Part shown: positions 1,851 to 13,174 of the stretch, piece by piece
Numbering within the stretch: position 1 is the stretch's first letter
Layout: each line of letters starts with the position of its first letter
From: a virus
IMG/VR virus record: IMGVR_UViG_3300025759_012783
Coordinates: 1-51,956 of that record
DNA: 51,956 nt
Strand: one strand, 5' to 3'
Translations under genes and position numbers: made by a program
Notes under the pieces: generated by a model
Databases searched by the model: none
The model's input: the letters and a program-made list of their open reading frames with translations, nothing else
What the model was told of the DNA's origin: nothing

Positions 1851-3116
1851 TTATTTAATGCGTTGTTCTAGCCTAACTGCCAGTTTTGATTCGAAATTTA
1901 GGCCCTCTGTGGTCATGAATTTGGCGTACTTGTCCTGTAGATCTTTGACATAAGGTAGATCCCTGCCAGAATCCAACCTAACTTTGGCGTCCCTTAGGTC
2001 TTTCTCTATCATTTTTGCCAGATCATCGTTGCCTGATTTCTCTGCCATCTCCAGTGCGGTGTTCATAGCCTTGATTGCTGGCACGGAATTGTTTATGGCA
2101 TCATTGACGGATCCTATGCCCGCCAGCCCTGCCACAATGACTCCCGCCATTGCCAACTTCTTGGCCCATTCTTTTATGCCTTCTTCTAGGTAAGCGTCTT
2201 CGTTGGTTGGTCCCGCGTACATCTTGTCTAGTAAGTTTATGGTCTCATCCGCTGAGCTCAGGAATGCCTGTGCCTTTGGTCTCAGTAACACCATGTCATC
2301 ACCCTTCATTATGCCATCGGCCATCGCCTTGGCGTATTTTAGGTTGGCCAGTGCCCTGCCCACGGCTCTTGGATCTTCATTCACGATGTCCTCTTTCTTC
2401 ATCTCTTTCTCGTCTGGACTGTGTCCAAATGACTTGTGCACCAGTTTGTCTAATTTCTTGTGGAAGGTGTCCACGTCCTTCTTGCTGACATCTTCCCTCA
2501 TCTTCTTGGCTAATTCTTTCTCCACTTCGTTCACTCTCTTCTTCAGTATCCTCATCATGCCTGGTTTGGTGTCCACGTCCTCCGCCCTGCATTTCCTCTC
2601 TAATATCTCGTCCAGGTGTTTCTGTATGATGCCCGCGTGTCTGTGTAATATCTTGCTGTCAATCTCTTCCCTGTATGGGTTCAACTTCTGGTAGTCCTCG
2701 TAGTGGTAAACAGCCTGTAGGTAGTCCGCCGCTAGGTTCAATTTGGTCTGCACCCAGCCCTCCAGGTCATCGCCTTTCTTGATCATGTCCAGTAGTTCTA
2801 TGGCCATCTTGGCGGTCTGGTACAACTGTGATTTGCTCATGTGTCCCTCGCCCGCGTCTTCAGTCATGCCCGCGTCATCGTAGGTGCCTGCCTTCTCGCC
2901 AGCGGTGTAACCGTGTACGCTTTTCACGTAGTTTGACGCCAGGTCAATCTTCTTTGCGACCCATGCCTCCATCTCCTGATCGTCCTTGATCATGTTGTGG
3001 ATCTTGATGGCGTGTGTGCCGATCTTCAACAATTGATTGAGTGCCATTCCGGCCTCGTAGGTGTCGGGCTTGACGTCCGGTTTCTGCATGAGGGTGTGTA
3101 TGTCCTCGAACTTCAT
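1851..3116 (-). CDS. Helical late protein with duplicated ExWVxxK..LA..Y motif, 421 aa
   Basis: Begins MKFEDIHTLMQKP, a weak variant of the M(K/R)xxE(F/I) start of its neighbours. Two copies of a roughly 50-residue helical unit are visible, centred on EAWVAKKIDLASNYVKSV (about residue 50) and EGWVQTKLNLAADYLQAV (about residue 123). A small-residue hydrophobic segment (LAMAGVIVAGLAGIGSV, about residue 325) could insert in a membrane. The stop is one base before the end of the next gene's coding frame, so it is co-transcribed with the gene at 3118-3465. Similar WV..K repeats occur in marine T4-like phage proteins of unknown role. A packaged or tail-associated protein is possible. Confidence 0.8.
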   Translation of the reverse strand: MKFEDIHTLMQKPDVKPDTYEAGMALNQLLKIGTHAIKIHNMIKDDQEMEAWVAKKIDLASNYVKSVHGYTAGEKAGTYDDAGMTEDAGEGHMSKSQLYQTAKMAIELLDMIKKGDDLEGWVQTKLNLAADYLQAVYHYEDYQKLNPYREEIDSKILHRHAGIIQKHLDEILERKCRAEDVDTKPGMMRILKKRVNEVEKELAKKMREDVSKKDVDTFHKKLDKLVHKSFGHSPDEKEMKKEDIVNEDPRAVGRALANLKYAKAMADGIMKGDDMVLLRPKAQAFLSSADETINLLDKMYAGPTNEDAYLEEGIKEWAKKLAMAGVIVAGLAGIGSVNDAINNSVPAIKAMNTALEMAEKSGNDDLAKMIEKDLRDAKVRLDSGRDLPYVKDLQDKYAKFMTTEGLNFESKLAVRLEQRIK

Positions 3117-3117
3117 C

Positions 3118-3465
3118 CTAGTTGAATCCCACGTGTGTTATTTCTGGATGTTGTTTCTTGAATCTTGTGGCTTCTTGGTGCACCGCTTCCACGTTGTCAT
3201 ACTGCACCGTGTCCTTGTTGGCCGCATTGGTGTCTAGGTATTTCTGTGTGGTCTGTAAGAATTCATCTATGGGGTATGGACTGGTGTTCTCGAAGTCCGC
3301 GTCCAAACCGATACTGCTCAATATGGATCTCGCTGTGACGTTGCTGACGTGTCCGATCTCAAATTCCATGTTCTTTGGATACGAGTACGTGCCATCCTTG
3401 GTCTTGAAGTAGCCGTAGAAGTCAGCGCCTTCGTTGATCTCTGATTTGAATTCGTGGAATCTCAT
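3118..3465 (-). CDS. Putative internal head protein, 115 aa (CTS-like N-terminus)
   Basis: Starts MRFHEFKSEINE, matching the M(K/R)xxEF pattern of T4 capsid targeting sequences, with an I-N-E triplet that fits the (I/L)xE site cut by the T4 prohead protease gp21. The remainder is a small mixed alpha/beta protein without known motifs. A late octamer lies 8 bases before the ATG. The next gene begins 2 bases after its stop. Packaging into the capsid is an inference from the N-terminus and from the neighbours with the same pattern. Confidence 0.75.
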   Translation of the reverse strand: MRFHEFKSEINEGADFYGYFKTKDGTYSYPKNMEFEIGHVSNVTARSILSSIGLDADFENTSPYPIDEFLQTTQKYLDTNAANKDTVQYDNVEAVHQEATRFKKQHPEITHVGFN

Positions 3466-3473
3466 AGTGTCAG

Positions 3474-3481
3474 TATTTATG
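3474..3481 (-). promoter_or_regulatory. Late promoter octamer
   Basis: CATAAATA on the minus strand, 8 bases before the ATG at 3465. It overlaps the stop codon of the small Cys-rich gene upstream. Confidence 0.65.
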
Positions 3482-3650
3482 CTTCGCAGGCCTCACATCT
3501 ACACTGCCTACACACCTCTACGGGGTACTCCATGTAGCCGTCAATGGGGTAGTGCTTTTCTGTTCGTGTGCATGTGGTGTCGCAGTGCGAGTCGCAACCG
3601 CAGTTCTTACACATCACGGCCCATTCGTTCTCTAATACTAGCACAGTCAT
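3477..3650 (-). CDS. Small cysteine-rich protein, 57 aa, probable zinc binder
   Basis: A short frame with nine Cys in 57 residues. The N-terminal cluster is CKNCGCDSHCDTTC (Cys14, 17, 19, 23, 27) and the C-terminal cluster CRQCRCEAC (Cys47, 50, 52, 55). The two clusters separated by about 20 residues resemble a small zinc-binding domain. Its ATG overlaps the stop region of the gene at 3650-3913 (shared base), which argues for translational coupling. No known family is recognised; protein-protein or nucleic acid binding are both possible. Confidence 0.75.
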   Translation of the reverse strand: MTVLVLENEWAVMCKNCGCDSHCDTTCTRTEKHYPIDGYMEYPVEVCRQCRCEACEA

Positions 3651-3913
3651 TATCTCTTGACCAGTGGTCCGCCCATGAGGTTCACACCCGGTAATGCGTG
3701 TGCGCCCTTGGCCGTGCCGTCTGGGTTTTTGGGTTGTGTGATCTTGGGCAATCTCGGTGCCCGTGTGCCTGATCTTCCAGGTGTGCCAGTGTATGCTTTT
3801 GTGAATCTATCTTTTCCTATGGCTATGTGCGGTGAAACCACTGTGGCTATGTTGCCTGCTGAAGTGGCTCCTGCTGTGGCCTGCTCTCTGATCAGAATTT
3901 CATTGATCTTCAT
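3650..3913 (-). CDS. Putative internal head protein, 87 aa (CTS-like N-terminus)
   Basis: Begins MKINEILIREQATAG. The first residues fit the capsid-targeting pattern M(K/R)xxE(F/I), and I-R-E at residues 8-10 is a possible gp21-type cleavage site. After it comes a Gly/Ala/Pro/Lys-rich, apparently unstructured basic protein, comparable in character to the small basic internal proteins of T4. A late octamer lies 8 bases before the ATG. Function beyond that is unknown. Confidence 0.75.
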   Translation of the reverse strand: MKINEILIREQATAGATSAGNIATVVSPHIAIGKDRFTKAYTGTPGRSGTRAPRLPKITQPKNPDGTAKGAHALPGVNLMGGPLVKR

Positions 3914-3921
3914 TGTAGTCT

Positions 3922-3929
3922 TATTTATT
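3922..3929 (-). promoter_or_regulatory. Late promoter octamer
   Basis: AATAAATA on the minus strand, 8 bases before the ATG at 3913 and within the last codons of the upstream gene. Confidence 0.7.
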
Positions 3930-4566
3930 TGTAGTACATAACTTGTCTCGGAAAAGCATGGGCGAAATAAAGTCTACCAAAAGGACTGTTCCCAGGATGT
4001 ATGATTCCGTGTTTGCGCGTCAACGGAATTTCCAACTTAAAGTTTCCGGGTCTCTTCATGTAGTAAAATCCAACTCCCCATTCCTTTTTTTCTGAGGTCA
4101 ATATTATTTCTTTCCTGTCAGGTACTTTTGGCCAAAGTTGTGCTCCAAGTGGGTAACCCAGATTTCTGAAACGTTTAAGTTTTGGCCAGTGTTTTCGATC
4201 GAGGACCCATTCTGGCATTATTGCTAATTGGTGCCATCTAATATAAGCGTAGTCCGTCATGAAGCCATTGTTGTAGTTGTTGAAATCATTTTTAATCTCG
4301 ATGCGGATACTTTTACGCAAGTATCTTTCATCTATAGTGTAAAGGAAAATTTTTTCAGGAATTATACATATTTTTGAATAATTTTTTGGACCAATGTGTT
4401 TTATATGATCAGGTGGAGCAGGCAAAGAATTATCATCAATTGCTCTTAAATTTATGTCTTCGGTGAGACGCATTTGGTTAACCAAAACATTGTCTGCATA
4501 AATTTTAATTAAGGCATCCTGCTGATACCTGTGGTATTCAAACTGCATCGCAAATACATAATTCAT
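3925..4566 (-). CDS. AT-rich unknown protein, 213 aa, possible beta-sandwich
   Basis: The codon use is clearly more AT-rich than the flanking genes. The N-terminal half has alternating hydrophobic strands (ALIKIYADNVLVNQMRL, then KSIRIEIKND) and is weakly like the strand pattern of the proteins at 8935-9477 and 47121-47687. The C-terminal half is rich in Trp, Tyr, Arg and Pro. No catalytic motif, signal or membrane segment is visible. The composition suggests recent acquisition. A binding or structural role is a guess only. Confidence 0.75.
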   Translation of the reverse strand: MNYVFAMQFEYHRYQQDALIKIYADNVLVNQMRLTEDINLRAIDDNSLPAPPDHIKHIGPKNYSKICIIPEKIFLYTIDERYLRKSIRIEIKNDFNNYNNGFMTDYAYIRWHQLAIMPEWVLDRKHWPKLKRFRNLGYPLGAQLWPKVPDRKEIILTSEKKEWGVGFYYMKRPGNFKLEIPLTRKHGIIHPGNSPFGRLYFAHAFPRQVMYYK

Positions 4567-4592
4567 GCTTTTAATTTTTAAGGTTGTTTAAA

Positions 4593-5018
4593 TTATTTTT
4601 TCTTGCCAGACTTCATGTTGGCACACCAGTGGTACATCTTGCCTCTCTCGCCTCCGTACTTCTTGGCCTTTGCTCTTAACGAGCTCACTGAGCCTTTACA
4701 ACTCGCACCAGCCCGTTTGACTCTGCCTGGCCTGCTCTTGCCCTTGCGCTTGCCGTCAGCGAAGTTCTCACGGAACTCTTTCCAGTCCAGTTTCAGTTTC
4801 TTGACGTTCATGTACTCCCCACCCTTGGGCACGTCCTTGGTGGCGTTCTGCTTGGTGACTATGCCTACTCCGGCGGCCTCTTCGTTCTCGATCTCGTTAG
4901 CCCTGTTGTTGCCCTTATTTTTGAAGTCAAACCTGTTGTTGGGGCCACGACCCGGCCGGTGGATCAGACCCATTGGGTCTGCGGTGTGTGGCATTATGAT
5001 GAATTCTCTAATCTTCAT
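4593..5018 (-). CDS. Basic protein with CTS-like start and C-terminal Cys module, 141 aa
   Basis: Starts MKIREFIIMPHTADP, again the capsid-targeting-like pattern. The C-terminal half is very basic and ends with two Cys separated by a Lys/Arg/Gly stretch (ASCKGSVSSLRAKAKKYGGE, then MYHWCANMKSGKKK). A comparable Cys-and-Lys tail closes the reductase-like protein at 5611-6303. The ATG overlaps the TGA of the short gene upstream (ATGA), so translation is coupled. DNA or RNA binding inside the head would suit the charge, but this is inferred. Confidence 0.8.
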   Translation of the reverse strand: MKIREFIIMPHTADPMGLIHRPGRGPNNRFDFKNKGNNRANEIENEEAAGVGIVTKQNATKDVPKGGEYMNVKKLKLDWKEFRENFADGKRKGKSRPGRVKRAGASCKGSVSSLRAKAKKYGGERGKMYHWCANMKSGKKK

Positions 5019-5164
5019 TTGACTCTAATTGGATAGGCCATCATGGAATGGTAGCCCATCGTCCTCTTTCCTTTGGCTCTCTTTTGATACTTATTTAGAA
5101 TTTTATTGATGTCTGGATGAATTATCTTGGGATCCTTGGTGTAGACTATCTCTCGGATCTTCAT
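5015..5164 (-). CDS. Short basic protein, 49 aa (MKIREI start)
   Basis: This frame lies between the Dps-like gene and the 141-residue gene and overlaps both by TAATG and ATGA junctions, which is strong evidence that it is translated. The protein starts MKIREIVYTKDPKIIHPDIN and ends with basic residues (YQKRAKGKRTMGYHSMM then AYPIRVK). It shares the N-terminal M-K-I-R-E with its downstream neighbour. Function is unknown. Confidence 0.7.
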   Translation of the reverse strand: MKIREIVYTKDPKIIHPDINKILNKYQKRAKGKRTMGYHSMMAYPIRVK

Positions 5165-5601
5165 TACTTCAGTGTGCTTTTGAGCATCCACTGATGTTTG
5201 TTGTGTGCGTCTATCCTGCCACCTATGAAGTCAGCGAATCCATGTAGCCTGTTGGCCTCCAGCATCTCGAAAAGTTCAGTCAAGATCTCTATGACTTTTG
5301 TGTTTGATTCGATCAGTTTGGAGTACATCTCTTCTGCGTCCACCACCCTAGCCTCTTGTTCTATCTGGCTCAGGTCCATGAAACGGTCGAACACGCCCGG
5401 TGCGTATGTGCCCAATGTCCTGATCTCTTCCGCGAACTTGTCTAGTTCTCCGTAGACCTCTTCATAAACTTTACCAAACAACTCATGGTCCTGTGAGAAG
5501 TGCCTGCCTTCCACGTTCCAGTGGTAGTAGTGTGCCTGCAGGTAGAACAGGTAACTGTCTGCGAATGCCTGTTTGGCTTTTAATTTGATCTCTGGTGTCA
5601 T
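5164..5601 (-). CDS. dps: Dps-like ferritin-fold protein
   Basis: 145 residues, close to the usual Dps length. The Dps signature is visible: a helix with AHYYHWNVEGRHFSQDHELF, where the His and Asp/Glu residues form the iron site shared between subunits, then EVYGELDKFAEEIRTLG. The second half has two more long helices. Dps proteins form dodecamers that oxidise iron with hydrogen peroxide and often bind DNA. No strongly basic N-terminal tail is present (start MTPEIKLKAKQ), so DNA binding is uncertain. The gene has its own late octamer 6 bases before the ATG. It lies next to a reductase-like gene and a superoxide dismutase gene, which suggests a shared oxidative-stress role late in infection or in the virion. 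Confidence 0.88.
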   Translation of the reverse strand: MTPEIKLKAKQAFADSYLFYLQAHYYHWNVEGRHFSQDHELFGKVYEEVYGELDKFAEEIRTLGTYAPGVFDRFMDLSQIEQEARVVDAEEMYSKLIESNTKVIEILTELFEMLEANRLHGFADFIGGRIDAHNKHQWMLKSTLK

Positions 5602-5607
5602 TGTGCT

Positions 5608-5615
5608 TATTTATC
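5608..5615 (-). promoter_or_regulatory. Late promoter octamer before the dps-like gene
   Basis: GATAAATA on the minus strand, 6 bases before the ATG at 5601. It overlaps the stop codon of the upstream reductase-like gene. Confidence 0.7.
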
Positions 5616-6303
5616 GTTTCTTCTTACGGCCCGCGCAGTGTGCCTTCTGGCTGAATCCCTTGGGGTTGGAGCAGTTTATTGACTTTTTGTACTTGGCGCT
5701 CCAGGACTCGTTTATGTCCACTGATCCGTGCCTGGCCTCTCGGCTTGGGTTATTTTTCTGTAGCATGTCCGCCCACACCGTCATGTTGGTAACACAGTTC
5801 TTAACCTGTTCCAGCGTGTCATCGTCCTCCACTATCTCGTCCAGTCCTTGTGCCTTTGACTCTATGTTACATTGTGGAGGTATTGTGAAACCAAAGTTGG
5901 CCGCGGCCGAATACAGCACACCATGTATGTGTTGGAATCCATCACCGCCTCCGGATATCAAACTTCCAAAAACCTTGTTGTACATGGGTTGGTAGTTGTT
6001 GTCCTTGGCCCATGAGTATATGGGATCTAATCTCTCCAGCATGGCCTGTGTGTGGCAACTGTGCTGTCCCCACCATATGGGGGTTGCGAATATCACACCA
6101 TCTGCTTTGAAAATCTTCATCAGTTCAGGTTTCAACTCATCGTCTATGTCAGCCGTCGCACCTTCATAATTTAATTCCCTCAGTGTGATTATTTCACACT
6201 CATGGCCTAGTTTCTGGAATGCCAGTTGCGTCATCTTGCACACAGCGAAAGTGTTTGATTCTGAATCTGGTTTCAGACTGCCATTGAAAATTAAGAACTT
6301 CAT
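5611..6303 (-). CDS. Flavodoxin-fold NAD(P)H-dependent FMN reductase-like protein with Cys tail
   Basis: The N-terminus MKFLIFNGSLKPDSESNTF is a flavodoxin-type phosphate-binding loop after the first strand. FATPIWWGQHS (about residue 72) and GSLISGGGDGFQ (about residue 112) match the loops that hold FMN in the NADPH-dependent FMN reductase/WrbA superfamily. The expected reaction is flavin-dependent reduction of quinones or similar electron acceptors. After about residue 190 there is an added tail ending SINCSNPKGFSQKAHCAGRK, with two Cys, a His and a Lys/Arg cluster, not part of the enzyme fold. The ATG overlaps the TGA of the superoxide dismutase gene (ATGA), so both come from one message. 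Confidence 0.8.
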   Translation of the reverse strand: MKFLIFNGSLKPDSESNTFAVCKMTQLAFQKLGHECEIITLRELNYEGATADIDDELKPELMKIFKADGVIFATPIWWGQHSCHTQAMLERLDPIYSWAKDNNYQPMYNKVFGSLISGGGDGFQHIHGVLYSAAANFGFTIPPQCNIESKAQGLDEIVEDDDTLEQVKNCVTNMTVWADMLQKNNPSREARHGSVDINESWSAKYKKSINCSNPKGFSQKAHCAGRKKKR

Positions 6304-6854
6304 TTAGTGGCCCTCAGTGTTATCACACCGCATGCGAGCCTGTCACCCGCGTTGCCTGTCTTCATACTCTCTTCATCTCTACCTTGTCCCAGGTCATCGC
6401 GGTCTGCGTGGACTACTAGTCCTCGTCCCACGACAGATCTTTCACCAATAAGGTCTACCCTGTTGGCCTCGATTGAGAAACTGGCAGTTCCATTGTCATC
6501 TGCTGTGATGTTGCCGAGATCTCCCACGTGTCCCTGTTCTAGATCACCGTGTGTAGTGTCGTCTGGGTTATAGTGTCCTCCCATTGACTCACAGCCCTTG
6601 CTCATGTCTCCAAACTCGTGTATGTGGAATCCGTGTTCACCTGGCTCCAGCCCTGTTATTGTTCCTTTGATCAGTGTGGGTGTGCTTGGAGCCTGCATCA
6701 ATAATATCCTGCCTTTGACCTTGTCTGAGTGCTCCAGTTCACACTGTGCTATCACAGTGGTCTCGCCCTCTGTGATGCTGTTAATTCTGCTACAACTACA
6801 CTCTTTGGCTCTTGTTCTTTTACAACTGGTTTCTGTGAATTCCTGTGCTCGCAT
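6300..6854 (-). CDS. sodC: Cu/Zn superoxide dismutase with capsid-targeting-like leader
   Basis: All hallmark segments of Cu/Zn superoxide dismutase are present in order: GFHIHEFGD, the Cys and GGHYNP segment, GHVGDLGN, VVHADRDDLGQG, and KTGNAGDRLACGVI. The copper and zinc ligands and the disulphide Cys pair therefore appear intact. The start chosen is the ATG at 6854, because a late octamer lies 8 bases upstream and the protein then begins MRAQEFTETS, the capsid-targeting-like pattern of several neighbours. A longer frame to 6932 would place the promoter inside the gene. About 29 residues precede the domain and end in S-I-T-E before GETTVIAQ, a fitting gp21-type (I/L)xE site. There is no typical Sec signal. 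The enzyme dismutates superoxide; packaging into the head is inferred. Confidence 0.92.
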   Translation of the reverse strand: MRAQEFTETSCKRTRAKECSCSRINSITEGETTVIAQCELEHSDKVKGRILLMQAPSTPTLIKGTITGLEPGEHGFHIHEFGDMSKGCESMGGHYNPDDTTHGDLEQGHVGDLGNITADDNGTASFSIEANRVDLIGERSVVGRGLVVHADRDDLGQGRDEESMKTGNAGDRLACGVITLRATK

Positions 6855-6862
6855 TGTGCGAG

Positions 6863-6870
6863 TATTTATT
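6863..6870 (-). promoter_or_regulatory. Late promoter octamer before the sodC-like gene
   Basis: AATAAATA on the minus strand, 8 bases before the ATG at 6854. It overlaps the 3' end of the upstream gene and decides the start assignment of the superoxide dismutase. Confidence 0.72.
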
Positions 6871-7075
6871 TGCGTTTGGGCATTGGATTCTCGCCCGTCA
6901 GTCTTGGTTGTGCGAACCAAAGTCGGAACCATTCATCCGTGCCTGGTTTTATGTTGTGTTTCCTCTGGTATTGGGCCTTGGCGGTGCCCACGTAAGACAG
7001 GTTCTCGCCCATGGAATCATCCTGTGTGATCTTATCCACGCCCGCCAGTTGTTTTATCCTATCCAGTTCGTCCAT
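6866..7075 (-). CDS. Small conserved-looking phage protein, 69 aa
   Basis: Starts MDELDRIKQLAGV, an N-terminus that recurs in small proteins of T4-like marine phages, and ends with basic residues (MPKRK). The middle contains PGTDEWFRLWFAQPRLTG. No membrane segment. Its ATG overlaps the TAA of the gene upstream (TAATG), so it belongs to the operon running from about 8588 to 6866. Function unknown. Confidence 0.75.
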   Translation of the reverse strand: MDELDRIKQLAGVDKITQDDSMGENLSYVGTAKAQYQRKHNIKPGTDEWFRLWFAQPRLTGENPMPKRK

Positions 7076-7260
7076 TATCTATTCTTCATCATCTGTCTTA
7101 TCCATTGTTCTTCGGTAATGACATTTTTTAATTTTTTCTTCTTTTTTTTCTTCTTGGTATTTACCCGCTTCTTGGTCTGGAATTGTGAGTCGTTGGGTGT
7201 GTTGTTGGCCAGCTCGTCGAAGAACTCGTGATCTATGTCCTCTTTGCTTTTTCGAACCAT
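7075..7260 (-). CDS. Small protein with poly-lysine run, 61 aa
   Basis: The protein has an acidic N-terminal half (KEDIDHEFFDELANNTPND) and then a run of eight lysines interrupted only at its borders, before NVITEEQWIRQMMKNR. It is coupled to both neighbours by short spacing or a TAATG overlap, which supports it as real despite the homopolymeric A/T stretch. A nucleic-acid-binding role is possible from charge alone. Confidence 0.65.
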   Translation of the reverse strand: MVRKSKEDIDHEFFDELANNTPNDSQFQTKKRVNTKKKKKKKKLKNVITEEQWIRQMMKNR

Positions 7261-7261
7261 G

Positions 7262-7441
7262 CTAGATGGTCCAGTCGCGCTCTTGCTGTTTGGTTGGTTT
7301 GTGTGCCTTGACCTTCTCTACCTTGCCGCCCTTGGCCAGGAACTTCTTCATCTTCTCGTCCAGTTCCTTCTGTTTCTCTTGTGGGGTCTTCTCTATCTCG
7401 CCCGCCATGTATGGTCTATTGATCCCGCTGTATTTTGGCAT
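7262..7441 (-). CDS. Small lysine-rich protein, 59 aa
   Basis: Starts MPKYSGINRPYMAGEIEKTP and continues as a charged helix (EKQKELDEKMKKFLAKGGKV). The ATG at 7441 is preferred because AAAGGA and GAAGGA lie just upstream; it overlaps the end of the nucleotidyltransferase gene by 26 bases. A second ATG at 7408 has a poorer ribosome site. The stop is one base before the next ATG. Unknown function. Confidence 0.65.
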   Translation of the reverse strand: MPKYSGINRPYMAGEIEKTPQEKQKELDEKMKKFLAKGGKVEKVKAHKPTKQQERDWTI

Positions 7442-8588
7442 ATCCTTCCAGTCCTTTCTTTACTTTGTCTAGTGAATCTCTGTTTGCTTGGTACAGTATT
7501 CCGTATCCGCCCGCGGCCTGCCACTTCTGTATGTTGATCGGCCTGTCGTCTATGAGTATGTTTGGTGTGCCCGTTCCCTTGTCCGTGGCGTATGATTCTT
7601 TCCTGCCTGTCACAACGATGTCATCTGGCTGTTCTATGTGTTGGTCGATCCATACCTTCTTGTATTTGGCCGAGTTGGCGTTGTCACCCCTCAGTGGTGA
7701 TGTGTTTATGGAGAACCGTCCTCCTGTGAATTCTTTGACCATGTCTATGAGGCCATCCGCTGTTGGGAATTTAGGCAGTGTCGCGAAGAAGTCCGTGCCT
7801 GTGATCCTATCTATGACTTCTTTCTTGAGATCCTTTGTCTTGTCTGAGGTCAACTCTTTCCAATGGCTTACCCCATACATCTTCTCTACTCCTCCGAAGA
7901 AGTCTGCTAGTACACCATCCATGTCTAAATATACTGTTGGTTTCATATCACCTATCGCTTCATTATACAACTTTTTGTTGTTTTCGTCAATCGTGACTCC
8001 TAGTGCGTCTTGTATCTTGTCGTAGATGATTTTACCATCATCGCCGCCCATTATGATCTTGGAGAACTCATGCTCCTGGCCTTTCGCCGCTAGTTCTCTG
8101 GCTTTTGATGCCGAGGCACCCGTGATGCCTTCCGCATCAGGATCACGCTGTCCTGCGTTGATGACTTTTATGTCATCAAACTGGTAAAGTAAATTGCCCT
8201 GCTTGTCAGGTTTGCCGTTGTATTGATTCAACAGTTTCTCAAATTCTTCAACTCTGTCCGAGCCCGCTATCATTATGATCCTGGTCCTGCCCTCTGACTG
8301 TATCTTCTGTAGTGCTTTTATGATTGTGTTTGAGTTTGCGTCTCCTACCTGCAGTTTAGGATAGTACTGCTGTATGTAGGCCTGCTTCTCTGCGAATGTA
8401 AGTGGATCAGTCTTGTTGTTTTGTTTGTGTGACAGGAACAGGTACGACTTGGCGTTGGCTTTTTCTGCCGTCGTGATCACCGTGTCGATCAATTTCTGGT
8501 GTCCTATCGTGGGTGGGTTGAATCGGCCAAAGGCGAACACCGCTGTTGAGCGATCGTCTTCCCTAAGAAATATTTCCCTGAGTAACAT
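7416..8588 (-). CDS. Nucleotidyltransferase (NadR/cytidylyltransferase type) fused to HAD-like nucleotidase, with CTS-like N-terminus
   Basis: 390 residues in two domains. Domain 1 (about residues 12-180) has FAFGRFNPPTIGH, the phosphate-binding (H/T)xGH motif of nucleotidyltransferases, and GASASKAREL near residue 158, comparable to the second (I/S)SSxxxR-type motif. Domain 2 (about 215-390) has YLDMDGVLADFFGG (Asp222 and Asp224, HAD motif I) and later NILIDDRPIN, typical of deoxynucleotidase-like HAD phosphatases. The first ten residues, MLLREIFLRE, resemble the capsid targeting sequence with an L-R-E cleavage triplet, directly before the catalytic domain. The substrate cannot be read from sequence; NAD or nucleotide metabolism is plausible. 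Its start overlaps the upstream gene's 3' end by 26 bases. Confidence 0.85.
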   Translation of the reverse strand: MLLREIFLREDDRSTAVFAFGRFNPPTIGHQKLIDTVITTAEKANAKSYLFLSHKQNNKTDPLTFAEKQAYIQQYYPKLQVGDANSNTIIKALQKIQSEGRTRIIMIAGSDRVEEFEKLLNQYNGKPDKQGNLLYQFDDIKVINAGQRDPDAEGITGASASKARELAAKGQEHEFSKIIMGGDDGKIIYDKIQDALGVTIDENNKKLYNEAIGDMKPTVYLDMDGVLADFFGGVEKMYGVSHWKELTSDKTKDLKKEVIDRITGTDFFATLPKFPTADGLIDMVKEFTGGRFSINTSPLRGDNANSAKYKKVWIDQHIEQPDDIVVTGRKESYATDKGTGTPNILIDDRPINIQKWQAAGGYGILYQANRDSLDKVKKGLEGYAKIQRDQ

Positions 8589-8919
8589 CGTATTCGCCTG
8601 CCTTTATGTTCTCCAGTTCCCTGTCTGATATTATCCTTGCCACTTGCTGTCTGGTCTCTCGTGGAAACATGGTCTTCACATCATCGGCCGTTGAGCCGAA
8701 TTCCTTTACGTATTCCTTAGCGGCATCGTCCACTAGGTACATCCATAACTTCTGTGCCTTCTCGTGGTCGTACACGTTCTTGTTGATTTTTCTCTTGATG
8801 TTTGATATGATGGGCATGAAACGCCTACGGTACAGTTCCTCGCTGTTCATGATGTAGGTGTCAAGCTCGTTGACCGCGTCTGAGTCTATGTTCTCTGTGA
8901 TGAATTCTGATGCTCTCAT
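8563..8919 (-). CDS. Putative internal head protein, 118 aa (MRASEFITE start)
   Basis: MRASEFITENIDSD is the best match in the window to the T4 internal protein leader, with E-F-I and an I-T-E triplet at residues 7-9. The rest is a charged helical protein with no catalytic motif (ELYRRRFMPIISNIKRKINK). It heads the transcript that continues with the nucleotidyltransferase fusion. A late octamer ends 7 bases before the ATG. Function after packaging is unknown. Confidence 0.8.
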   Translation of the reverse strand: MRASEFITENIDSDAVNELDTYIMNSEELYRRRFMPIISNIKRKINKNVYDHEKAQKLWMYLVDDAAKEYVKEFGSTADDVKTMFPRETRQQVARIISDRELENIKAGEYDVTQGNIS

Positions 8920-9477: not shown

Positions 9478-9653
9478 TCAAATTCTAATCCTGCTGTGTG
9501 TCCTGTGTACGGGATATTTACATCGTCCCTGAACATCTCTATGAATAATTGGGTTCCTGGTACCTGTACTTTCATGTACTTGTCCGTTCGTTCTAACACT
9601 TCCGCTTCCTTGGTCCTGTCGTTGTTGGTACAGGTTATCGTTATTGTTTCCAT
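9459..9653 (-). CDS. Small beta-rich conserved protein, 64 aa
   Basis: Compact protein with METITITCTNNDRTKEAEVL, DKYMKVQVPGTQLFIEMFRD and a final GLEFEW segment. It overlaps the 3' end of the subtilase gene by 13 bases and the next gene by 19 bases, so it is probably translated from the same message. No function is recognised. A competing frame at 9478-9702 was rejected because of its composition. Confidence 0.75.
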   Translation of the reverse strand: METITITCTNNDRTKEAEVLERTDKYMKVQVPGTQLFIEMFRDDVNIPYTGHTAGLEFEWQPKN

Positions 9654-12600
9654 TTTGGGTCCTCTGGGTTGATTGGTATGAATTTGTCAGTTTTGAGATC
9701 ATATTTTAGTCCGTGTGCTGTGGCGTTGTCAACAGTTCCCCCGAACAGATTGGCCTTCATGACCTCCTTGCCCGTCTCTGGATCGGTCTCGTAGCACTTT
9801 GGATTTTTCATCCACAAAAACTTACACGCAGTCTTAAGTTTCTTAGCAAACTGTAGTGTGAAATTCATACCATCTTTTCCAGATTGCCCGGCTATGTCTT
9901 GCCTGTACTCCGTGGTGAACTTAATACCCGCGTCAAACGTGTCTGTGGGCTCGTGGTTGAAGTAGAAACCGATGTTCTTCTCCTTGGTGCCCTGCGACAG
10001 GTCTGATCTTATTGTTTGGTAGTTTATGGTTCCGTCTAGGTTCACGCTCTCGGCTACCTCCAAGTCCATCGTTCCTGATGTTATGTGACTTGGAAGTGAG
10101 AACGACCAACCGAGAGTATTGTGCTTATCCTTGTGTATCTCATAAGCCAATCTGTATGATTCTGTCTCAACGTCTGAGAATGATTTAATTAAACTGTCGT
10201 CCACCGTGTTGATGTCGGTCCGACCTCTGGTGTAGTCCAAGCTCAGCACGTTGTTGCCGATCTGGTAGTCTACCCCGATGTTGCCGAAGTTGGTGTTGTT
10301 GTTGTCACCCACCGCCAGCACACCGTCCGAGCTGTTGCCCAACCATGTCTCCTGTTCACTCATGATACCAACACCGGTCTTCAGTTTGAATCTGTCTGAG
10401 ATGAAGAAGTTCTTTCCAATGTTTGTGCTGTAGTCTCCATTACCACTTTCGCCTGTGTAGAAACCAAAATTATAATTATTCACAAGATCCCATTGTCCAC
10501 CCTGTGCGAATGAACCGTACATCTGTTGCGTGGGCAGGAATGTGTGATTGTCTGTGAGCAACATCTCCGTGTCTGAATACTTCCTGTTGTCCTTCACAGT
10601 GAAACTGTTTCCTAGATTTATGTAGTAGTCCCTGTCGAAATCATCTATGATCATGATGTCTACGTTAGATATGGCTGACGCCATGGATGCTGAGCCGGAT
10701 CCGCCTGTGCCCTCCACGGAAGCGATCGCTCCGTCCACCCTGCCTGTTGTGGGTATGCCCACGGCACCCTGTGGTCTAGTGGCCTCATCGAAGTCCACCA
10801 CACCCTGTCCATGTATGTTGACATCATATCCTGCGATGCTCTTGTCCGCGGTCGAGGTAACCAGTTTGACCAAATTCTCACCTGTCATGTGTGGCCACAT
10901 CTGATGAAGTATCGCCACCTGTCCTGTCACTATCGGTGCCGCCATTGAGGTTCCTGTCTTGTTGTCATAGCCCCCATCTTTGCTGGCGCTGTAGGTCCAG
11001 CCCGGTGCCAACACGTAGAAGTCTGATGTCTTGTATTTGTCTCGACAGGTGTCGTCCACTATGACTCTACATAGGTGCCCCGCCTTGTTGGAGAACCCAT
11101 CTATGGAGTTGGCGTTGAAGTTATATGATCCCACTATCAGCATCTTGCCACCCAGCACCAGGTTGCCATCTGCGTCCGTCTCTGTGGCGAACCATCCCGG
11201 CATCGCACTGATGTCTAATCCTTGGTTACCAGCGGAGTTGACCACAACCATGCCCTTGTCGGTGATGGTCTTCCATCCGTCCACTGACATGCTGTTGTAG
11301 TAGTCGCCCGCACTGTAGTCGTAGTAGGCACTGGTTGTCTTGAACGCGCCATCACTCAGTTTGGTTATGCTGTCTCTGAACCACGAATCGTAGTTGCTGT
11401 TCGCTGACAGGTTACCAACCACTGCTCCTTGGTCCGCCGCCCAGGCCAGTCCTGTTTGTGCGGAGTCTAGGCTGACTGATCTGCCGTCTCCTATCTTGAC
11501 CACAACGGCCTTGGCATCGTAGGCCACACCGTGCATCCCCGTGCCGTCCTTCTTGGCCACTATCGATCCCAGCACGTGTGATCCGTGTCCCTGGTTGTCA
11601 CCTATGCCCGTTCCTGTGTAATCCTTTGTGGCCACGACCTGTCCCTCGAACTCCGAGTGGTCCACGTCATAGCCCGTGTCAGCCACTGCCACGATGGATC
11701 CCTTACCCGTCCATCCCCTGCTGTAGGCACTGCTGACGTTGATCTTCTCGTACACCTTGTATCCGTTGTTGGACTCATTGTACTCTGACGTCTCGTATGT
11801 GGTCTTGTCTGTGCTGTATCCTGTTGTACGTGTGCCTAAGTTCTCGTCAGTGTCTGTGTATGCTGTGTCTATGACATTGTTGAAGGTCTCCGTGGACACT
11901 ATCTGTCCTGGAGCGTCATCTATAGTCCTTGTCTCTGTCTGTGTTTCTGTTTCCGGTTCACCGTAGGTATCTGGTGTGTCCACTGACCTTGTGGTCACGT
12001 TCAATTCTTCTGTGACACCGTGGTGCCATTCTCTCAGGGTGTAACTCTTGTATGATACTGTCATGATCCTGTACGCCTGTATGCTCTTTGTCCTAGACCT
12101 CTCTTGGCTTGATGTCGTGGTCTCCCTGGTTGTACGGGTCGTGGTGCCGTCGCCGTTGTCAACGTCTGTTGAAGTGCTAGAAGTTACACTTGACGTGGTG
12201 CTCCAATCTGTCCAATCTGTGTATGTTGGGTCACCATCGTATGGTTCGCCATACGCGGTGCCTGTGACTTCGTCCGTGACCGAGGTGTCTGTGTATGTCA
12301 GTGTATCTGTCACGGTTCTATACTCTGTGCTAGTGTCCACGGAGTCAGATAGGGTTTCTGTACTTTCTACTTTACGGTACGCTTTTGTGGTTTTGGAGTC
12401 ACCGTTTGAGAAGGTTGTGATCGTTTCGTCGATGTATGTCTTTGTGATAGTTCTGGTTCTCTGTGTCGTTGTTGTGACTGTTCTTTCCTCTGTCTTTGTG
12501 GTTGTTTCAGATGCCATGTCATGTGATACTGAAGTTTCGGTCCAATCACCATAACTTATCACTGGTACTCCATAAATTACGTCACCCTCTACAATTTTTA

Positions 12601-13174
12601 TAGGTTCTTTTCCTTTAACTGGTGTTACAGAAACTGTCTCTGCCTTGCCTGTTTCCACCAGCTCGTCTATAAGATTGTCCTTTTTGCTGTCTGCATCCAT
12701 GTCGGCCTCTATGGCCTTGTAGGTCAAATCCTCGTCGTCGAACTGCTTGTCCTTGACAAGGTTTTTCCAAAATGATTCTTTTCCCTCATAATATTTCTTG
12801 GTGTATCCAACCAGCGCGTACCATCCTTTTTCCAAGGACATGTTCTGTCCATCGATAGTGATTTCATAGTTGGCCAGCACTGATGGATCGAAGGTGCCGT
12901 TGTGTTTCTGCACGAACTCAAACGCTTCGATGGCCTCACTGGCGTCGACTACTTGGTCTTCACTCATTTTTTGTATGGCACTTATAAAGGCAGATCCTCT
13001 GTCGCCGATGCCAAAGATATCTGTGGATAATCCTAATCTCTCTTTTGACACAGGGGTTGGAGGTACCGGAGGATCAAAAACCACCGAAACACCACCACCA
13101 CCGCCACCGCATGCGGCCAGTGTTGTTGATAGTATGGTTGCTAGTGCTGTGTTCTTGAAGGATGATCGTTTCAT
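9641..13174 (-). CDS. Lipoprotein subtilisin-like (S8) protease with C-terminal autotransporter-type beta barrel, 1177 aa
   Basis: The N-terminus is a lipoprotein signal: basic start, hydrophobic core and lipobox L-A-A-C with Cys22, followed by a glycine run. About residues 210-470 are a Thr/Ser-rich, low-complexity linker. The S8 domain (about 485-800) holds the full triad: Asp499 in VADTG, His530 in GHGSHV, Ser743 in GTSMAAP, with the oxyanion Asn650 in NSAGN. From about 870 to 1105 there are alternating amphipathic strands (SLDYTRGRTDIN, GMNFTLQFAKKL) like an outer-membrane autotransporter barrel. About 65 more residues follow the apparent last strand. The gene overlaps the small membrane protein gene upstream (TAATG), and both lie behind a sigma-70 promoter. 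Bacterial surface proteases of this build cleave surface or neighbouring proteins. In a phage it could remodel the infected cell's surface; that is inference. Confidence 0.92.
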   Translation of the reverse strand: MKRSSFKNTALATILSTTLAACGGGGGGVSVVFDPPVPPTPVSKERLGLSTDIFGIGDRGSAFISAIQKMSEDQVVDASEAIEAFEFVQKHNGTFDPSVLANYEITIDGQNMSLEKGWYALVGYTKKYYEGKESFWKNLVKDKQFDDEDLTYKAIEADMDADSKKDNLIDELVETGKAETVSVTPVKGKEPIKIVEGDVIYGVPVISYGDWTETSVSHDMASETTTKTEERTVTTTTQRTRTITKTYIDETITTFSNGDSKTTKAYRKVESTETLSDSVDTSTEYRTVTDTLTYTDTSVTDEVTGTAYGEPYDGDPTYTDWTDWSTTSSVTSSTSTDVDNGDGTTTRTTRETTTSSQERSRTKSIQAYRIMTVSYKSYTLREWHHGVTEELNVTTRSVDTPDTYGEPETETQTETRTIDDAPGQIVSTETFNNVIDTAYTDTDENLGTRTTGYSTDKTTYETSEYNESNNGYKVYEKINVSSAYSRGWTGKGSIVAVADTGYDVDHSEFEGQVVATKDYTGTGIGDNQGHGSHVLGSIVAKKDGTGMHGVAYDAKAVVVKIGDGRSVSLDSAQTGLAWAADQGAVVGNLSANSNYDSWFRDSITKLSDGAFKTTSAYYDYSAGDYYNSMSVDGWKTITDKGMVVVNSAGNQGLDISAMPGWFATETDADGNLVLGGKMLIVGSYNFNANSIDGFSNKAGHLCRVIVDDTCRDKYKTSDFYVLAPGWTYSASKDGGYDNKTGTSMAAPIVTGQVAILHQMWPHMTGENLVKLVTSTADKSIAGYDVNIHGQGVVDFDEATRPQGAVGIPTTGRVDGAIASVEGTGGSGSASMASAISNVDIMIIDDFDRDYYINLGNSFTVKDNRKYSDTEMLLTDNHTFLPTQQMYGSFAQGGQWDLVNNYNFGFYTGESGNGDYSTNIGKNFFISDRFKLKTGVGIMSEQETWLGNSSDGVLAVGDNNNTNFGNIGVDYQIGNNVLSLDYTRGRTDINTVDDSLIKSFSDVETESYRLAYEIHKDKHNTLGWSFSLPSHITSGTMDLEVAESVNLDGTINYQTIRSDLSQGTKEKNIGFYFNHEPTDTFDAGIKFTTEYRQDIAGQSGKDGMNFTLQFAKKLKTACKFLWMKNPKCYETDPETGKEVMKANLFGGTVDNATAHGLKYDLKTDKFIPINPEDPKWKQ

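Follow-up and report, generated by a model that had tools for sequence, protein, structure and literature searches.

The window analysed here (51,956 nucleotides, positions 1 to 51,956 of the IMG/VR virus record IMGVR_UViG_3300025759_012783) carries a gene for a Cu/Zn superoxide dismutase (SOD) preceded by a short N-terminal leader. The initial annotation proposed that it is carried in the capsid, with the leader acting as a removable head-targeting sequence. The gene that it described as intact at 6300-6854 is correctly placed and lies on the minus strand, with its ATG at 6854 and its stop codon at 6302-6300; the match to Pfam Sod_Cu spans residues 46-178 with an E value of 7.5e-46 (Table 1).

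Table 1. Coordinates of the SOD gene, of the parts of its product and of neighbouring features in the window.
Feature	Position	Strand	Basis
Cu/Zn SOD precursor gene, 184 aa + stop	6300..6854	-	Pfam Sod_Cu 7.5e-46, relatives
SOD enzyme domain, predicted mature protein, residues 30-184, 155 aa	6303..6767	-	Pfam, alignment, AlphaFold2, PDB match
Predicted prohead-protease site I27-T28-E29, cut before G30	6768..6776	-	conserved in leaders
Cys motif CKRTRAKECSC, residues 11-21, CxRTxAxxCxC	6792..6824	-	conserved in SOD loci
Capsid-targeting-like start MRAQEFTE, residues 1-8	6831..6854	-	pattern in leaders, neighbours, T4 rule (PMC9026906)
T4/cyanophage-type late promoter AATAAATA, 16 nt upstream of SOD ATG	6863..6870	-	motif NATAAATA
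Small neighbour MKINEILIRE↓QATAGATSAGN (arrow, predicted cut)	3650..3913	-	resembles capsid protein past predicted cut
Neighbour, targeting-like start MKIREFI	4593..5018	-	start pattern
Dps/ferritin-like protein, own late promoter GATAAATA at 5615	5164..5601	-	PF00210 1e-20
NADPH-dependent FMN reductase-like protein, Cys/basic C-tail CSNPKGFSQKAHCAGRKKKR	5611..6303	-	PF03358 1e-14
Cytidylyltransferase + 5'(3')-deoxyribonucleotidase fusion, targeting-like start MLLREIFLRE	7416..8588	-	domain matches, start pattern
Neighbour, targeting-like start MRASEFITE	8563..8919	-	start pattern

All the metal ligands and the disulfide cysteines were said to be kept, and indeed they are invariant in an alignment of 45 sequences (A2), which comprises H77, H79, H94 and H149 for Cu, H94, H102, H109 and D112 for Zn, the disulfide C88-C175 and also the catalytic R172. 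In the AlphaFold2 model, pLDDT is mostly above 90 across the SOD domain, and the leader is modelled at low confidence (44-62). The closest PDB structure to the model is dog SOD1 (0.9 Å rmsd, 51% identity), and sequence comparison gives about 53% identity to dog and human SOD1. By these measures, the window's SOD is of the eukaryote type (SOD1-like, E-class) and not a bacterial SodC. The presence of this enzyme with its leader is not due to chance, because 46 IMG/VR loci share the same arrangement of leader and SOD domain, and dN/dS is about 0.06-0.09 where estimable; such values indicate that the SOD is under strong purifying selection.

The leader reads M1RAQEFTETSCKRTRAKECSCSRINSITE29, so that its length of 29 residues, its MRAQEFTE start and its SITE end abutting the enzyme domain are as first described. 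Another reading frame across this segment, which looked protein-like, was ruled out, the annotated frame being kept in all relatives. Eukaryote-type (E-class) SODs are usually cytosolic. The reported lack of a Sec signal agrees with a leader devoid of a hydrophobic core, but in an enzyme of this class it gives by itself no clue to packaging. In the same way, the view of the whole leader as a targeting sequence fits only residues ~1-8, which resemble a T4 capsid-targeting sequence, but not residues 11-21, which form a separate Cys motif tied to SOD. As judged from comparison with its relatives, the leader is therefore made of three parts, namely a targeting-like start, a CX7CXC Cys motif and an I-T-E site.

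The CX7CXC motif, which had no place in the initial annotation, is conserved among relatives. Its invariance in alignment A2 derives in part from the way the sequences were selected, and for this reason the IMG/VR searches were repeated with the SOD domain alone: the motif was present in all the 157 loci analysed (78/78 and 79/79), S or E being allowed at the Ala position. When the pattern CPRT[KR]AxxCxC was considered, 78 IMG/VR ORFs were found, 77 of which precede a SOD (one of them cut short by the end of its contig) and one is a GC-rich chance match, which ruled out the motif as a general head-targeting element.

The group of SODs with the CxRTxAxxCxC motif was published in 2021 by Wright as Group 2 of eukaryote-like bacterial CuZnSODs (PMC8382915). 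According to the passages of that paper on which we draw, the CXC of Group 2 was likened to that of the eukaryotic copper chaperone CCS, and the Group 2 enzyme RbCuZnSOD (OUV78940) is active in vitro both as a monomer and as a dimer, its disulfide being formed slowly. The features that the window's SOD shares with Group 2, as there described, are the CxRTxAxxCxC motif (here CKRTRAKECSC, residues 11-21, at the N-terminus), the eukaryote-type fold and disulfide, Thr/Val at the position of human Gly150 and the absence of a signal peptide. In particular, T179 (CGVI-T179) sits at the Gly150 position, and the stretch FGDMSKGC has the E-class Cys configuration expected of Group 2. The I/L-x-E site, the capsid-targeting start, the late promoter and the polyproteins described below do not appear in the same passages. 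A known SOD group is here joined, in terms of sequence, to a leader of the T4 head-protein type.

The head protease of T4, gp21, cuts after L/I-X-E, as first seen at a Glu-Ala bond, and a capsid-targeting sequence (CTS) of 10 residues is sufficient for the packaging of foreign proteins by T4 (PMC9026906). A site of this (I/L)xE type had been placed directly ahead of the enzyme domain of our SOD, and the comparison supports it: [ILVM]xE is found at one fixed position in 112/112 distinct leaders, the first residue being I in 73, L in 32 (105 with I/L), V in 5 and M in 2, and Ala directly follows in 72 of the 112. The start is more variable, with a MRAxEF-like sequence in 75/112 distinct leaders, 13 further leaders having a Met start without a good targeting motif and 11 having no clear Met start nearby. 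The first site of the window's leader, FTE, differs from the canonical L/I-x-E. The conserved xE site could also serve other ends, for example within the fold of the Cys motif.

Targeting-like starts are not confined to SOD. When defined by the pattern M[KRHL]x(1-3)[EQD][FILV], they are present in 7 of the 13 genes at 1851-8919 as compared to 9 of 61 window-wide (p = 1e-4); the corresponding values are 9/16 near SOD vs. 16/217 overall in contig G001 (196 kb, p = 4e-8) and 5/15 vs. 15/223 in contig G002 (172 kb, p = 1e-3). Head genes were not found within the window, which is a fragment, and therefore its own protease is not seen there; contig G002 has no head genes either, and so is uninformative on the protease. 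Three of 15 large SOD contigs carry together gp23 and the head-maturation protease phrog_207 (gp21 type), and the other 12 carry neither of them. The capsid proteins of these three contigs have LSE↓QATAG, LQE↓TATAG and LAE↓AASTG ahead of the conserved core, and by analogy with T4 gp23 we infer that they are cut at L-x-E; the SOD sites on the same contigs are LTE↓AE, ISE↓DQ and IQE↓AE. We also observed that in the protein encoded at 3650-3913 of the window MKINEILIRE is followed by QATAGATSAGNIA, which closely matches the gp23 sequence of G001 past its predicted cut, LSE↓QATAGATSAGNVA.

With regard to timing, T4-like cyanophages use the motif NATAAATA as their late promoter (PMC2984593). Twelve minus-strand copies were found in the window. 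Eleven of them are followed by a gene start at a distance of 13-38 nt (p = 3e-15), tail genes being among the genes concerned; the remaining copy lies ahead of an ATG close to the left end of the window, outside the gene list. Among relatives with an N-terminal leader, 30/86 have the motif within 40 nt, vs. 0.4% of random windows. The late expression of SOD predicted from these motifs fits with head assembly. Several of the NATAAATA motifs, such as that at 6863-6870, lie merely 13-17 nt before the ATG, so that the first transcribed nucleotide may fall on the start codon or close to it, giving leaderless mRNA.

In some phages, the unit made of Cys motif, site and SOD is embedded in large proteins. 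These include polyproteins of 2472 aa (L230), 1140 aa with a cytidylyltransferase domain (L246), 1076 aa (L174), 639 aa and ParB-like (L204), 574 aa with DUF6267 (L013), 353 aa and HD phosphohydrolase-like (L185), and 344 aa with a pterin dehydratase (L190). In the set of embedded units (11 distinct cases), [ILVMF]xE is found before the Cys motif in 10/11, at the junction between motif and SOD in 11/11 and after SOD in 9/10, the background frequency being 22% per 12-residue stretch. The occurrence of these sequences at the borders indicates that the unit keeps its borders when it is moved, as expected if the modules were separated by a protease.

Our preferred reading, which we regard as probable, is that the SOD precursor is an internal-head enzyme of the phage, which would be targeted to the head, cut and retained with the DNA; packaging in itself seems likely and is well supported by the comparison. 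The SOD would be made late, together with the head proteins, and its MRAQEFTE start would bring the precursor into the scaffold core of the prohead. A gp21-type head protease would then cut after E29, leaving the 155-aa SOD in the head with the DNA, and the mature enzyme would remove superoxide close to the packaged DNA, in the cell that has just been infected, or in both places.

It is unlikely, in our opinion, that this SOD is instead an ordinary cytoplasmic auxiliary enzyme, which lowers superoxide late in infection and whose leader is a metal-acquisition extension that is never cut. The usual cytosolic location of eukaryote-type SODs speaks for such a role, and late expression is compatible with it too. 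In addition, RbCuZnSOD is active as the native sequence, apparently with its Cys extension, in the passages cited above (PMC8382915). An enzyme of this kind, however, leaves unexplained the universal I/L-x-E↓A at the edge of the domain, the CTS-like starts common to neighbouring genes and the hydrophobic-x-E borders inside unrelated polyproteins.

Even less likely, in our view, is a packaged SOD that serves the head as a structural or metal/redox component and not as a protective enzyme. T4 heads do hold non-essential internal proteins in hundreds of copies (PMC9958956), and the fusion of the SOD unit to unrelated modules would suit a component of this sort; against it stand the invariant metal ligands and catalytic Arg, the strong purifying selection and the catalytic activity of the relative RbCuZnSOD (PMC8382915, same passages).

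Within the preferred reading of a packaged enzyme, a role may be proposed also for the Cys motif. Before the cut, it might help the enzyme to take up copper or to form its disulfide in a cell lacking a counterpart of the eukaryotic copper chaperone of SOD, whose CXC its own resembles, and in the polyprotein forms the Cys peptide would be cut free on both sides. Just as speculatively, an active monomer could pass the portal; activity as a monomer is retained in RbCuZnSOD according to the same part of PMC8382915. That the CX7CXC leader serves in cis as a disposable copper/disulfide chaperone, excised by the prohead protease to leave an active monomeric SOD small enough to pass the portal for injection, is possible but should be taken as tentative.

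Group 2 was published as proteobacterial in the text that we cite (PMC8382915); here, by contrast, the family sits on tailed-phage contigs, on which the motif-bearing SODs were found in the public collections searched. The phages that bear this SOD, a family from the ocean, were found in metagenomes only, and no homologue with the leader was found among 50,697 cultured-phage records. Among species genomes, the motif form is limited to four contigs (L049-L052) of three MAGs, labelled as Pelagibacter, Rickettsiales and Betaproteobacteria, and on these contigs the SOD is accompanied by genes that also flank it in the window (FMN reductase, cytidylyltransferase, MRASEF and MKINE genes), in the same order but not all of them on each contig. 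Two of these, L051 and L052, are near-identical SOD-bearing phage contigs that are both binned in the Rickettsiales MED657 MAG. No other genome was found with the SOD family among the 397 of the Pelagibacter MAG's order, nor with the motif form among the 32 of the MED657 MAG's order, and the Cys motif was not found in any bacterial relative examined.

A FastTree phylogeny was built in which the yeast and spinach sequences were entered by hand and the human one was completed by hand at mutated positions; it is a quick tree, and the direction of transfer cannot be read from it. It unites 27 phage SODs in a single clade (support 0.94). The nearest to it are two MAG SODs without the Cys motif (0.85), and the whole groups with eukaryotic SOD1 (0.97). 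The two MAG SODs are L053, labelled as Rhodobacteraceae NAT686, and L057, labelled as Rickettsiales SAT45. Hence, that the gene is a bacterial one (Group 2, proteobacterial) picked up by phages now and then, as the description from MAGs in the cited text has it (PMC8382915), is very improbable in view of the lone MAG in each of the two orders, of the phage neighbours on L049-L052, of the absence of the motif from the bacterial relatives examined and of the single clade of phage SODs. The MAG contigs and the two orders did not bear out the attribution of Group 2 to Proteobacteria (the contig of OUV78940 was left out), and the simplest reading of the sequences examined makes Group 2 a phage family and its MAG copies phage contigs.

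A close parallel is offered by the T4 internal proteins IPI-III and Alt, to which the window's SOD compares by its short N-terminal targeting-like start, its L/I-x-E site and its predicted late expression; the gp21-type protease belongs to the T4 system and is found here on related contigs. It differs from those proteins in that what would be carried is a SOD, in the conserved Cys segment that separates this cargo from the targeting-like start, and in that packaging is predicted. SOD1 of the chlorovirus PBCV-1 (A245R) is, like the window's gene, a late viral Cu/Zn SOD, and it is reported to be packaged in the virion and active; PBCV-1, however, is a giant virus of algae, and a phage-type leader is absent from the description of A245R (PMC7019647). 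The polyvalent proteins of phages are also multi-domain and predicted to be packaged and injected (Iyer 2017, PMC5512222), but that account nowhere uses the word superoxide, and the modules of the SOD polyproteins are bounded by prohead-protease-like sites. The SodC proteins of the Salmonella prophages Gifsy-2 and Fels-1 are phage-borne Cu/Zn SODs too, but they are of the bacterial secreted type, prophage-carried and without a head leader, and are ~31-32% identical to the window's SOD.

The most useful new points are the predicted removable Cys segment, the predicted protease-bounded polyproteins and the move of Group 2 from bacteria to phages. If the packaging proposal is true, an antioxidant enzyme joins the known cargo of tailed-phage heads, with a modular, protease-processed polyprotein route for the loading of this cargo. 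The CXC leader would offer a testable natural design for the copper loading of SOD without a separate chaperone. The reassignment to phages of the published "bacterial precursors of eukaryotic SOD1" would weaken Group 2 as evidence for the entry of SOD1 via a proteobacterial endosymbiont, and poses the question of gene flow among phages, eukaryotes and bacteria.

Some observations concern the surrounding genes. The FMN reductase-like gene, which overlaps the SOD stop codon, is present at 20/50 related loci, and the cytidylyltransferase/deoxyribonucleotidase gene is kept beside SOD at 22 loci; the MKIREFI neighbour is fused ahead of SOD at L026, L051 and L052. A conserved Dps-SOD cassette was ruled out, Dps being present in this window only among the SOD loci tested. 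The Cys/basic tail C.NPKGFSQKAHCAGRKKK recurs on unrelated proteins, including the FMN reductase, those encoded at 5237-5470 of L050 and 7248-7490 of L051, and proteins of L167 and L262; it may have been added to head proteins as a module for binding DNA or metal. Finally, the minus-strand gene at 9641-13174 codes for a subtilase of 1177 aa (PF00082, 2e-31) with only weak matches in cultured phages and a lipoprotein-like start, MKRSSFKNTALATILSTTLAACGGGGGG, an exported protease being odd for a phage.
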